Shown in pieces: positions 252 through 57,945 of a stretch of DNA of 64,000 nt. The position numbers and the translations under genes are program-made. How positions within the stretch are numbered: the stretch's first letter is position 1; every line of letters starts with the position of its first letter. Below the pieces are notes generated by a model. It saw only the letters and a list, made by a program, of their open reading frames with translations, was not told the origin of the DNA and searched no databases. Source of the DNA: Desulforamulus hydrothermalis Lam5 = DSM 18033 (GTDB lineage: Bacteria; Bacillota; Desulfotomaculia; Desulfotomaculales; Desulfotomaculaceae); assembly GCF_000315365.1 (NCBI RefSeq), contig NZ_CAOS01000011.1:124266-188265 (forward strand), in the 5' to 3' direction.

Positions 252-348
252 CAGGGGGAAAAGCCTCCTTTTTGTTTGTGTAATTTTATGGAAAGAAAAA
301 CATGTTGCATTTTGGGAAAAATAATGTATGATAGGAATAACTTCATAA

Positions 349-436
349 CACGCCACAGGGGAGCGAAAGCTGAGAAAGGTTAAGACCTGACCCTCAATAC
401 CTGATCTGGGTAATACCAGCGAAGGGAGTGATGCAA
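349..436 (+). promoter_or_regulatory. TPP riboswitch (THI element)
   Basis: The leader carries the conserved THI-box blocks in order: ACAGGGGAGC, GCTGAGA, then CTGATCTGGGTAATACCAGC and GAAGGGAGTG. It lies about 140 bases upstream of thiD and is followed by an intrinsic terminator. Thiamine pyrophosphate binding would favour the terminator and switch off the six-gene thi operon. Identification rests on motif match and gene context. Confidence 0.96.
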
Positions 437-450
437 GACAGAGTTGTAAA

Positions 451-6332: not shown

Positions 6333-6638
6333 AAACCCCGTCCGACGGGGTTTGCAGAGTGGCGACAAATCTTATCGGTGGTTTATGATCCCCTTTGGCT
6401 CCGGTCTACACCGACAGCACTATGATTCGCTTCGGTGGCCCTTGGGGTCGCCTCAAACGGGCCCTCCTGGCCCGGTTCGACTGGCGCCCACGTCCTGTGG
6501 GCGCCACCCCAAGGGCTCCTTCGCTCATCAAGTGCTGTTGCCGGTGCTTCGACAAGCCGCCGGCAGGGGATCATAAAACCACCTTGACATTGTTTTGCAG
6601 CCTTTGTCTACAGTCTGAAACCCCGTCCGACGGGGTTT
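6333..6638 (+). repeat. Palindromic element copy 1 (full length) between duplicated terminator hairpins
   Basis: The element core is 6355-6617 (263 bp). It starts CAGAGTGGCGACAAA and ends CCTTTGTCTACAGTCTG. It is flanked by two identical 21-base copies of the hairpin AAACCCCG-TCCGA-CGGGGTTT, at 6333-6353 and 6618-6638. Only the right copy has a T-run and acts as the terminator. Inside, GGTGGTTTATGATCCCCT pairs with the rightmost AGGGGATCATAAAACCACC. A second stem (AGCACTATGATTCGCT with TTCGCTCATCAAGTGCT, and GCCCTTGGGGT with ACCCCAAGGGC) carries two tip hairpins. Open reading frames in it have no ribosome site or conserved protein character and are ignored. Confidence 0.9.
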
Positions 6639-8938: not shown

Positions 8939-8977
8939 TAGGACAGGCATAGCCGGTTATGCCAGAAAACACAAAAA

Positions 8978-9079
8978 ATGCCGAATCCATACGGTACGGA
9001 GGAACCAATTTGGGGGTGAATCCTGCTTGCCAGGTAGGGATTTCCTTGCCCGAACCCGTCAGCTAACTCCGGAGGCAAC
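8978..9079 (+). promoter_or_regulatory. c-di-AMP riboswitch (ydaO/yuaA type)
   Basis: The conserved blocks appear in order: ACGGAGGAACCAA, TTGGGGGTGAATC, TAGGGATTTCC, CCCGAACCCGTCAGCTAAC and TCCGGAGGCA, with the TGCC...GGCA closing stem. This class senses cyclic di-AMP and usually turns genes off. Typical targets are potassium transport and cell-wall or germination hydrolases, which fits the CAP-domain secreted protein 20 bases downstream. Confidence 0.93.
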
Positions 9080-9097
9080 AAGGAAAGGAGACAACCA

Positions 9098-14510: not shown

Positions 14511-14830
14511 AAAAGGGCAGCCCGGGGGCAGTCCTTTTCAGAGTGTCGACAAACATTATCGGTGGTTTATGATCCCCTTTGGCTCCGGTCTACGCACCGA
14601 CAGCACTATGATTCGCTACGGTCGCCATTGGGGTCGCCTCAAACGGGCCATCCTGGCCCGGTTCGGCTGGCGCCCACGTCCTGTGGGCGCCACCCCAATG
14701 GCTCCTTCGCTCATCAAGTGCTGTTACCGGTGCTTCGACAAGTCGCCGACAGGGGATCATAAAACCACCTCACTTTGTTTCACAGCCTTTGTCTATAGTC
14801 CGAAAAGGGCAGCCTGATGGCTGCCCTTTT
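14511..14830 (+). repeat. Palindromic element copy 2 (full length) between duplicated terminator hairpins
   Basis: The core is 14539-14802 (264 bp), in the same orientation as copy 1. Flanks are 28-base hairpins at 14511-14538 (AAAAGGGCAGCC... CCTTTT) and 14803-14830 (AAAAGGGCAGCC...GGCTGCCCTTTT), which differ at 5 positions. The right one carries the T-run. The inner stem reads GCCATTGGGGT with ACCCCAATGGC, whereas copy 1 has GCCCTTGGGGT with ACCCCAAGGGC, a compensatory pair change. Confidence 0.9.
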
Positions 14831-32005: not shown

Positions 32006-32116
32006 TGCTCTTATCCCGAGAGGTGGAGGGACTGGCCCAATGAAACCCGGCAACCATCCGGCATTCCGGACAGGTGCTAATTCCTGCAGAAGATTTTCTT
32101 CTGGCAGATAAGAGGT
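32006..32116 (+). promoter_or_regulatory. SAM-I riboswitch (S box)
   Basis: CTCTTATC...GATAAGAG closes the P1 helix. Conserved blocks are GAGAGGTGGAGGGACTGGCCC, GAAACCCGGCAACC and CAGGTGCTAATTCCTGCAG. S boxes repress methionine and homocysteine genes when SAM is abundant. It lies 90 bases before a gene for homocysteine synthesis. Confidence 0.96.
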
Positions 32117-52440: not shown

Positions 52441-52747
52441 GCAGGACAAATGTCCTGCCAGGCTGTAGAAAAAGGTTGTAAAACAAAGGGAGGTGGTTTT
52501 ATGATCCCCTGTCGGCGACTTGTCGAAGCACCGGAAACAGCACTTGATGAGCGAAAGGAGCCCTTGGGGTGGCGCCCACAGGACGTGGGCGCCAGCCGAA
52601 CCGGGCCAGGATGGCCCGTTTGAGGCGACCCCAAGGGCGACCGGAGCGAATCATAGTGCTGTCGGTGCGTAGACCGGAGCCAAAGGGGATCATAAACCAC
52701 CGATAATGTTTGGCGACACTCTGGCAGGACAAATGTCCTGTTTTCTC
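52441..52747 (-). repeat. Palindromic element copy 7 (full length) between duplicated terminator hairpins
   Basis: The core is 52459-52723 (265 bp), inverted relative to copies 1-3. Identical 17-base hairpins GCAGGAC-AAAT-GTCCTG flank it at 52441-52457 and 52724-52740; the right one has TTTTCTC and is the yabQ terminator. The inner stem is CCCTTGGGGT with ACCCCAAGGG, like copy 1. Confidence 0.92.
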
Positions 52748-52838
52748 ATTTTTTGGGGAAAACTAATTTCCTGTTTTTTGGCCGGGCGGCAGGAAAAAAA
52801 ACCTGCCTGTAGTAATTTTGTACTATAAATGTAATAAA

Positions 52839-52892
52839 TTTGTCCACAACCTGGGTATAAGCCGGGGATAACCTGTGGACAGTTTGTGGATG
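52839..52892 (+). promoter_or_regulatory. Cluster of three DnaA-box-like sites
   Basis: TTGTCCACA (52840-52848), TGTGGACAG (52874-52882) and TGTGGATGG (52885-52893). The first matches TTATCCACA at 8 of 9 positions; the others, on the minus strand, match at 7 of 9. They directly follow an AT-rich stretch (52812-52840). They lie just before the HTH-divIC operon. A role in DnaA-controlled expression is possible. Confidence 0.4.
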
Positions 52893-52911
52893 GGGGACGG
52901 GGGTAGGATAA

Positions 52912-53145
52912 GTGCAGGTGGAAATAAGGGGGGCAGAAAAACTCAGCTTTCGCGAGCGCCAGGTGGTGACCCTGAAGGAAATGGGCTATTCCACCGAAAA
53001 GATTGCCGCCAGGCTAAAGCTGAGTCCCAGTTCCGTAGCTACCTTGTATAACCGAGCCCGGGCCAAAGGATATCAGGTTGTAATAGTGATACCGGGACAA
53101 AACCTGGGTCTGTTTGACCCTGAGGAGGAGGAAACGGTTGAATGA
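52912..53145 (+). CDS. Small helix-turn-helix protein, sigma-70 region 4/LuxR type
   Basis: A 77-residue protein, GTG start. KLSFRERQVVTLKEMGYSTEKIAARLKLSPSSVATLYNRARAKG is a clear HTH of the sigma region 4/LuxR type. The rest is a short acidic tail (LFDPEEEETVE). It overlaps divIC by 4 bases (ATGA), so the two are translated together. Perhaps it controls the division gene or works alone as a small DNA-binding protein. Confidence 0.83.
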   Translation: MQVEIRGAEKLSFRERQVVTLKEMGYSTEKIAARLKLSPSSVATLYNRARAKGYQVVIVIPGQNLGLFDPEEEETVE

Positions 53146-53588
53146 TTTCCACCGGTAAAGGAAAAATAACCGAACTTAAACTGTACCGGGAACAACCGGC
53201 AACAAACGAGCCCATGCGGCGCCGCAGCAAAAGAGGCGGAGCAGCCCTGATGGTTTCGATATTGTTTGTGGCTTATATGATATTTTCCCTGGGCAGCCAG
53301 TTTAAAAAACTGCATGATATGCAAAACAGCATGGAGCTGTTGCAAAACCAAGTACAAGAACTGAAGACCCGGAATGCGGCCCTGCGGGAGGAAATTAAAT
53401 TAATTAAATCAGATTCTTATGTAGAGCAAGTGGCCAGAGAACAGTTGGGGTTGGTGAAGCCGGGGGAAACGCTGGTGGTTCAGGTTCAGTCGCCCCAGCC
53501 AGCCGACGCTAAAACATCCTCCCGGTCAACCGGTGAAAAACAGCAGGGCGAAGGGTTTAACATAAAATACAAGAACATCTATGACTGA
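53142..53588 (+). CDS. divIC: Septum formation initiator DivIC (FtsB-like)
   Basis: A 148-residue bitopic membrane protein: basic cytosolic N-terminus, TM helix (ALMVSILFVAYMIFSLGS, about 35-52), extracellular coiled coil (MQNSMELLQNQVQELKTRNAALREEIKLIKSDSYVEQVAREQLGLVKPGETLVV). DivIC forms the division complex with FtsL and DivIB. Same position as B. subtilis divIC, before yabR. Confidence 0.92.
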   Translation: MISTGKGKITELKLYREQPATNEPMRRRSKRGGAALMVSILFVAYMIFSLGSQFKKLHDMQNSMELLQNQVQELKTRNAALREEIKLIKSDSYVEQVAREQLGLVKPGETLVVQVQSPQPADAKTSSRSTGEKQQGEGFNIKYKNIYD

Positions 53589-57634: not shown

Positions 57635-57945
57635 CGGGGTGACTTTTAGTCATCCCAGACTGTAGACAAAGGTTGTGAAACAAAGTGAGGTGGTTTTATG
57701 ATCCCCTGCCGGCGACTTGTCGAAGCACCGGTAACAGCACTTGATGAGCGAAAGGAGCCATTGGGGGGGGCGCCCACAGGATGTGGGCGCCAGCCGAACC
57801 GGGCCAGGATGGCCCGTTTGAGGCGACCCCAAGGGCGACCGGAGCGAATCATAGTGCTGTCGGTGCGTAGACCGGAGCCAAAGGGGATCATAAACCACCG
57901 ATAATGTTTGGCGACACTCCGGGGGGTGACTTTCAGTCACCCTTC
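57635..57945 (-). repeat. Palindromic element copy 8 (full length) between duplicated terminator hairpins
   Basis: The core is about 57657-57921, in the orientation of copy 7. The flanking hairpins GGGGTGACT-TTT-AGTCATCCC (57636-57656) and GGGTGACT-TTC-AGTCACCC (57924-57942) are near-identical. The inner stem has CCATTGGGG opposite CCCCAAGGG, so one pair is mismatched (A against G), an intermediate between the two pair types in copies 1/7 and 2/3. Confidence 0.9.

Follow-up and report, generated by a model that had tools for sequence, protein, structure and literature searches.

The cluster of DnaA-box-like sites upstream of divIC in Desulforamulus hydrothermalis raises the question of what such sites are doing ahead of a small HTH gene and a division gene: whether DnaA links replication to septation there, whether the cluster titrates DnaA, or whether it is the operator of the HTH gene that it precedes. 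We addressed this in a 64-kb window (the whole stretch of 64,000 nucleotides that was analysed) and at the corresponding loci of relatives and of further genomes of the phylum. The features concerned are, in order:

52791..52815, + strand: SigH-like promoter, read from the sequence, with AGGA (-35 type) at 52791 and TGTAGTAA (-10 type) at 52808
52808..52840, + strand: array units 1 to 3, TGTAGTAATTT, TGTACTATAAA and TGTAATAAATT, starting at 52808, 52819 and 52830 with an 11-bp period
52840..52848, + strand, forward: DnaA-box-like site TTGTCCACA, 8/9, array unit 4 (TGT at 52841)
52852..52860, - strand, reverse: DnaA-box-like site TGGGTATAA (+ strand letters), 7/9, array unit 5, decayed
52863..52871, - strand, reverse: DnaA-box-like site CGGGGATAA (+ strand letters), 7/9, array unit 6, decayed
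52874..52882, - strand, reverse: DnaA-box-like site TGTGGACAG (+ strand letters), 7/9, array unit 7
52885..52893, - strand, reverse: DnaA-box-like site TGTGGATGG (+ strand letters), 7/9, array unit 8
52912..53145, + strand: small HTH gene, 77 aa, GTG start, sigma region 4 / LuxR-type HTH with an acidic tail
53142..53588, + strand: divIC, PF04977 at 65.0 bits (cut-off 28.9), overlapping the stop of the HTH gene by 4 bases

An 11-bp array ahead of the HTH gene

Three DnaA-box-like sites had been reported here by the initial annotation, and they are real and part of a larger set: a scan against TTATCCACA with up to 2 mismatches recovered five sites at 52840-52893, one of them matching at 8 of 9 positions and four at 7 of 9, none being perfect. 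These five sites are units 4 to 8 of an array of eight units in exact 11-bp register at 52808-52895, with unit starts at 52808 and every 11 bp thereafter up to the last at 52885, units 5 and 6 being without TGT. The AT-rich stretch described beside the boxes is present, but it consists of array units 1 to 3 in the same register. The four-unit TGT chain at 52808 is the sole such chain in the window when both strands are scanned, and is one of three matches to the four-unit TGT pattern in the window's own genome.

Just one place in the whole 64 kb has three or more such sites, one of them with no more than 1 mismatch, inside 55 nt. Because 4 of 60 first-order Markov sequences of window length also held such a cluster, the clustering is only moderately unusual for the window taken alone, and single DnaA boxes showed no enrichment in the window (56 observed vs. 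47.8 expected, sd 7.3); it is conservation that raises the cluster well above chance. The window copy of the array is among the weaker ones for DnaA, and with a best box of 8/9, DnaA binding may be weak in this organism.

The gene pair downstream, the small HTH gene and then divIC, stands as it had been described. Gene order in the window is yabP, yabQ, HTH gene, divIC, S1-domain gene, Ppx-type phosphatase gene, spoIIE, tilS and ftsH; yabP, yabQ, the HTH gene and divIC are the families that were tested against profiles, and the last five names are those we take the neighbours to bear. The HTH protein scored above the curated cut-offs of both PF08281 (35.7 bits, cut-off 25.7) and PF00196 (26.9 bits, cut-off 23.5), which places it among Sigma-70 region 4 / LuxR-type HTH domains. 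Its model (mean pLDDT 87, pTM 0.67) shows a three-helix HTH flanked by a short strand at either end, and the closest solved folds among the best 50 listed were mainly of LuxR/FixJ/GerE type and sigma region 4, with a best E of 0.063.

SigH promoters combine an AGGA-type -35 with a GAA-type -10 at SigH spacing. In the window the two elements lie 17 bp apart, start to start, and the -10 (GTAGTAA) deviates from the strict SigH-like pattern. Upstream of the HTH gene, AGGAW-N-RHRGAA was matched at 60 of 172 loci compared to 1.2 in shuffles (160 nt for the loci, 130 nt for the shuffles), and at divIC loci of relatives lacking the HTH gene it was matched at 7 of 11, the match at L087 falling inside the upstream coding frame. 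The -10 is in register with the array in some loci, not all.

No Rfam family at gathering score covers the array, and a reading of its upstream units as DnaA-trios (TTACTACA, bottom strand) was considered but not favoured, 3-nt trios not requiring an 11-bp register. Elsewhere in the window, TwoAYGGAY RNA (RF01731) occurs in four copies above gathering score, at 52521-52675 (+), 57718-57873 (+), 14587-14740 (-) and 6401-6554 (-); two of the copies are in repeats that flank divIC-spoIIE, 121 and 159 nt long and 92% and 98% identical, and one of these two stands directly upstream of the array. Riboswitches above gathering score were found for c-di-AMP at 8969-9092 (+), SAM at 32008-32114 (+) and TPP at 347-444 (+).

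Conservation of the array and its partner gene

Within the order, strong orthologues of the HTH protein were found in 48 of 60 relatives (a 49th reported match, in G019 at E 6.9e-4, is weak and was left out of the count), its profile matched 156 of 398 genomes drawn from the phylum, and the same profile matched 361 stretches of GTDB r220, of which the best 80 of 361 were taken. All sources pooled gave 214 HTH loci and, with at least 130 nt upstream and non-identical sequence, 172 distinct ones; these loci are akin to each other, and counts over the 172 overstate independence.

TGT-TGT distances at the 172 loci numbered 455 at 11 bp, as against 12.9 in shuffles, with 6 at 10 and 11 at 12; in 2722 control windows from the same loci the pairs numbered 60 at 11, 47 at 10 and 73 at 12, with no peak, and there were 13 perfect boxes and 1 head-to-head pair. 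The 48 relatives, examined up to 140 nt upstream of the HTH gene, gave 138 distances at 11 (4.1 expected), 0 at 10 and 1 at 12, with further peaks at 22 (96) and 33 (56). The boxes are likewise kept in relatives, mostly in a stronger form than in the window. Perfect DnaA boxes numbered 117 at the 172 loci versus 1.8 in shuffles, with 88 loci holding at least one and 139 holding a box with at most 1 mismatch; a DnaA-box cluster, in the sense of at least two boxes of at most 1 mismatch to the consensus TTATNCACA, is present at 115 of the 172 loci (5.0 in shuffles), and at least three such boxes at 86 (1.0 in shuffles). Taken together, these sequence comparisons indicate that the element is conserved across much of the phylum, upstream of orthologues of the HTH gene.

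Matches to the strict four-unit TGTA pattern numbered 24, in 15 of the 60 whole genomes, and each is just upstream of the HTH gene, so that no other target of the array was found in that set. A looser five-unit TGT pattern had matches in 50 of the 398 genomes; among the matches listed, 20 of these 50 genomes had one just upstream of the HTH gene and the other 30 had theirs elsewhere, many of these being simple tandem repeats by eye. Three species of f66, a family without the HTH gene, have in common a chain of five TGT units, spaced at 11 bp and with TGTGGAC ends (G282:C90:10179, G392:C139:4715 and G412:C70:3889), and one further site lies in G333.

As for the gene with which the array is associated, 161 of the 172 loci have divIC no more than 600 nt from the HTH gene; the 11 loci without a divIC call comprise 10 with no DivIC profile match, three of which (L166, L225 and L242) resemble divergent DivIC-type proteins by eye, and 1 with too little downstream sequence. 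FtsL and DivIC are partners. The main idea of the initial annotation, that DnaA controls divIC directly via the cluster and that the HTH gene is incidental, would fit both this linkage and the DnaA reported at the ftsL promoter of B. subtilis in the excerpted text of PMC8203912 (citing Goranov 2005). However, at divIC loci without the HTH gene, 41 of 41 have neither a box pair nor a chain of three units upstream with divIC still present, which makes direct control of divIC most improbable.

These 41 loci are from 11 relatives and 30 further genomes of the phylum. The HTH gene is absent from 12 relatives; divIC was examined in 11 of them, G013 having no match over cut-off, and the 700 nt upstream held no pair and no chain of three TGT units. 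The 30 further genomes, from 58 with a divIC-family match, held no perfect box, no pair and no chain of three in the spans read. Upstream spans were 130 nt for HTH loci and 550 or 700 nt for HTH-less loci (only 138 nt at L266), and the longer HTH-less spans contained isolated 1-mismatch boxes at 7 of 30 and 6 of 11 loci, none perfect. The longest TGT chain at HTH-less loci is 2 (L084, L272 and L291). At L084 the two units are kept 11 bp apart and could be a remnant. At L089 the last codons of the HTH gene (PGHNLGLFEPDEKEE plus stop) stand right behind a -10-like element, from which it follows that the array and the body of the HTH gene went together at this locus.

The converse case, an array without boxes, was found at loci that retain the HTH gene. 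A box of at most 1 mismatch is missing from 33 of the 172 HTH loci, and in 25 of these 33 a chain of three or more units is still kept at exactly 11 bp, versus 0.2% in shuffles; G024 and G051 have such box-less arrays and ordinary boxes at oriC. The array is therefore constrained independently of DnaA, and a pure DnaA site is insufficient to explain it. The other 8 box-less loci have chains under three, among them L099 (G181:C86, upstream of 11044), where an 11-bp tandem repeat, TTGGGGTAACC then TTGGGATAAGC, contains neither TGT nor a box of at most 1 mismatch and the HTH protein is of ordinary sequence. At 6 of the 139 box-bearing loci, no pair of TGTs shares the register. Upstream of the HTH gene at L106/L143 (G116:C20), three GTCGATAAC repeats 11 bp apart (TAGTCGATAAC, TTGTCGATAAC and CTGTCGATAAC) accompany ordinary units.

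These comparisons indicate that the conserved partner of the array is the HTH gene and not divIC. The suggestion that DnaA control ties replication to septation here thus holds in part: the boxes are conserved and share the geometry of oriC, but the array follows the HTH gene and is absent from all 41 HTH-less divIC loci.

Box geometry and the link to oriC

The likeness to oriC was assessed with the head-to-head pair TTNTNCACA-N3-TGTGNANAA, which replaced a doubled reverse-box pattern (14 sites in the 60 genomes, 9 at the HTH locus). The pair occurs at 44 places in 37 of the 60 genomes, 26 at oriC, 17 at the HTH locus and 1 elsewhere, and a control pattern gave none save 14 and 5 per strand in G029 and G047. 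Among the oriC pairs, 25 precede dnaA by no more than 200 bp (in G043 across contig ends, the contig being taken as circular), and the 26th, in G014, is at a contig end next to what we take to be yidC and rnpA, dnaA not having been found in that genome. Seventeen HTH loci among the 60 genomes thus have the oriC-type arrangement of head-to-head boxes 3 bp apart; the window's genome has its sole pair match at oriC, and the window copy of the array itself fails the pair pattern.

A perfect pair is also present in G019, which has no strong HTH orthologue, just downstream of a tsaD-like gene (L090 about 1536-1556, G019:C4:175535-175555); we take gcp to be the same gene as tsaD. Since the region downstream of gcp is described as a strong DnaA site in B. 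subtilis in excerpts of PMC4447404, the tsaD-side pair in G019 may be old.

In six single-contig genomes (G003, G004, G006, G008, G016 and G029) roughly 82 to 186 kb separate the HTH gene from dnaA, in the contig of G058 the distance is 21 kb, and in the window's genome the HTH gene is on C11 and dnaA on C10. A replication origin would lie beside dnaA/dnaN and hold an unwinding element; that the array is itself one was rejected on account of these distances in the six relatives and the separate contigs in its own genome. A DnaA-titrating or DnaA-controlling site, comparable to the B. subtilis box clusters or datA, would act on replication timing and not on the operon, with its promoter position a matter of chance; the dense boxes, the oriC-type pair, the distance from dnaA in the six genomes and the G019 pair beside tsaD, given the gcp site of B. 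subtilis (PMC4447404, in excerpt), all speak for it. Yet the array always lies between promoter and HTH gene and is absent without the HTH gene, a dependence that a titration site should not have, and we consider titration very unlikely.

The spacing of boxes at the 172 loci depends on their orientation. Forward-forward boxes are separated by 2 bp in 9 of 11 cases (2 at gap 3), reverse-reverse boxes by 2 bp in 41 of 47 (5 at gap 3, 1 at gap 5) and forward-reverse boxes by 3 bp in 71 of 72 (1 at gap 1), and no reverse-forward boxes were found at gaps 0 to 8. A single rule, TGT each 11 bp in one orientation, therefore predicts all four box-pair spacings. The position consensus of 72 aligned loci reads tTGTActaA, TTGT(A/C)CACA, TGTGGATAA and TGTGGAtAA, with atGTA.tAA and tTGTActaA as the two units ahead of the junction box; the forward junction unit (unit 4 in the window) is TTGTACACA or TTGTCCACA in 65 of the 72, and TGTGGATAA is the commonest form in relatives at the position of window unit 5 (34 of 72).

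A further bias concerns individual letters. Position 3 is G in 92 of 109 forward boxes; among 142 reverse boxes, 102 carry the DnaA-type A and 27 the G form, which is the palindromic partner; the G form is found at 1 of 26 oriC pairs, in G040 only. The position-3 G is needed in a forward box for TGT to stay in register, a need that the reverse box does not have. Such a bias is what joint selection by a TGT-reading protein and DnaA would give, and the HTH protein is the natural candidate for the TGT reader because its gene adjoins the array and, where the array is absent, so is the gene.

It might be argued that DnaA alone accounts for the array, with a DnaA-ATP row nucleated at the strong central boxes and extending in the direction of the promoter across weak sites at 2-bp spacing (TTGTACTAA and the like); the operon would thereby be repressed, with the HTH protein as a mere target. 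Forward units do grade from TTGTMCACA to TTGTActaA, and the head-to-head pair is common to array and oriC. Additionally, E. coli oriC is described in excerpts of PMC6727663 as having arrays of four low-affinity DnaA sites with 2 bp between them and a 3-bp gap at R4-C1, the same distances as in the array; this reading keeps weight because DnaA alone uses 2-bp-spaced sites there. Against it, the register is kept in 25 of the 33 loci without a box of at most 1 mismatch, two such genomes having normal oriC boxes, the array vanishes with the HTH gene although dnaA is present in the relatives (it was not found in G014), and the position-3 G of forward boxes is rare at oriC. We regard DnaA alone as unlikely, with a real minority chance.

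The opposite reading, in which the HTH protein alone reads the array and the likeness to DnaA boxes is fortuitous or a relic, would explain the linkage to the HTH gene, the box-less arrays and the weakness of the window's own boxes. It does not explain the 117 perfect boxes against 1.8 expected, nor why a single DnaA box, in its two orientations, supplies the two most frequent kinds of central unit, nor the preference of reverse boxes for the DnaA-type A over the palindromic partner (102 vs. 27 of 142). This reading is, in our judgement, distinctly unlikely. Because of the perfect boxes and a pair geometry like that of oriC, DnaA binding is likely in most relatives.

Two proposed overlapping codes and comparison with known systems

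We favour, at about an even chance of being right, the reading that the array serves the HTH-divIC operon as its operator and combines two overlapping codes, one for the HTH protein bound head-to-tail and one of DnaA boxes overlaid upon it in most lineages. The first code would be the direct repeats TGT-N4-A, exactly 11 bp apart and in a single orientation, on which a row of HTH protein would assemble head-to-tail along one face of the DNA, at and beyond the SigH-like promoter, and repress or tune its own operon. With its start at or downstream of the -10-like element, the array extends across the presumed leader, and protein bound there should therefore impede transcription initiation or early elongation. 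The second code would be read in the central units, which in most lineages double as a forward box (TTGTNCACA) and reverse boxes (TGTGGATAA) facing each other head-to-head across a 3-bp gap, as they do at oriC; DnaA bound at these boxes would compete or cooperate with the HTH protein, and the operon, divIC included, would respond to the state of replication initiation. The HTH protein would then limit its own operon, and DnaA would shift this limit with the state of replication. What the sequences show is the array with its exact period, its conservation, its tie to the HTH gene and a box geometry in common with oriC; the identity of the binding proteins and the sign of regulation we infer. 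Weighing against this reading are the change of unit sequence along the array, for which one HTH specificity without DnaA does not account, the loci that depart from the rule, the SigH-like pattern at only 60 of 172 loci with a -10 that is sometimes out of register, and the use by E. coli DnaA itself of weak sites at 2-bp spacing, which gives the same 11-bp period (PMC6727663, in excerpt).

A more far-reaching proposal, which we put forward tentatively and with considerable doubt, is that this is an origin-like DnaA array outside oriC, shared with a small HTH partner, in which the two proteins compete for 11-bp-phased sites and form a replication-to-division switch of a kind not described, lost together with the HTH gene. 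If true, the HTH-divIC operon would open or close with DnaA activity. The locus holds a conserved promoter element with oriC-type geometry, tied to an uncharacterised regulator ahead of a division gene. Desulforamulus, Moorella, Carboxydothermus and Thermincola are among the bacteria in which its sites are defined and a candidate partner protein is at hand. A search of the open-licence PMC literature found no title on the HTH gene before divIC or on DnaA at divIC.

The arrays of E. coli oriC, as far as excerpts of PMC6727663 describe them, are alike in their close-set sites, fixed orientation, 11-bp period and 3-bp gap at one junction of a strong and a weak site. The array described here differs in its promoter position, which in six single-contig genomes is 82-186 kb away from dnaA, in its tie to an HTH gene and in that some copies have no boxes at all. 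The oriC-proximal clusters of B. subtilis likewise place DnaA boxes at promoters or gene ends outside oriC, and some affect transcription (excerpts of PMC4447404 and PMC8203912); however, divIC is not among the regions which these excerpts list (dnaA, dnaA-dnaN, ywcI, gcp, trmE, ywlC, yqeG/sda, yydA and others), and PMC4447404 does not use the term in its main text. DnaA has likewise been reported at the B. subtilis ftsL promoter, before the gene of a divisome protein, but the gene is a different one, there is no HTH gene, and the excerpted text of PMC8203912 mentions no array.

The proposed behaviour of the HTH protein finds its closest counterpart in BldC of Streptomyces. Membership of the BldC family was rejected for the HTH protein, for which Pfam lists no MerR family and both Sigma70_r4_2 and GerE are over cut-off. 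BldC, according to excerpts of PMC5859096, is a MerR-like winged HTH protein on 9-bp repeats, whereas the window protein is LuxR/sigma region 4-like, with sites 11 bp apart and putative binding. Both are very small HTH proteins, and BldC binds head-to-tail on direct repeats about one helical turn apart and variable in number, so that head-to-tail binding of the kind proposed here does exist (PMC5859096, in excerpt).
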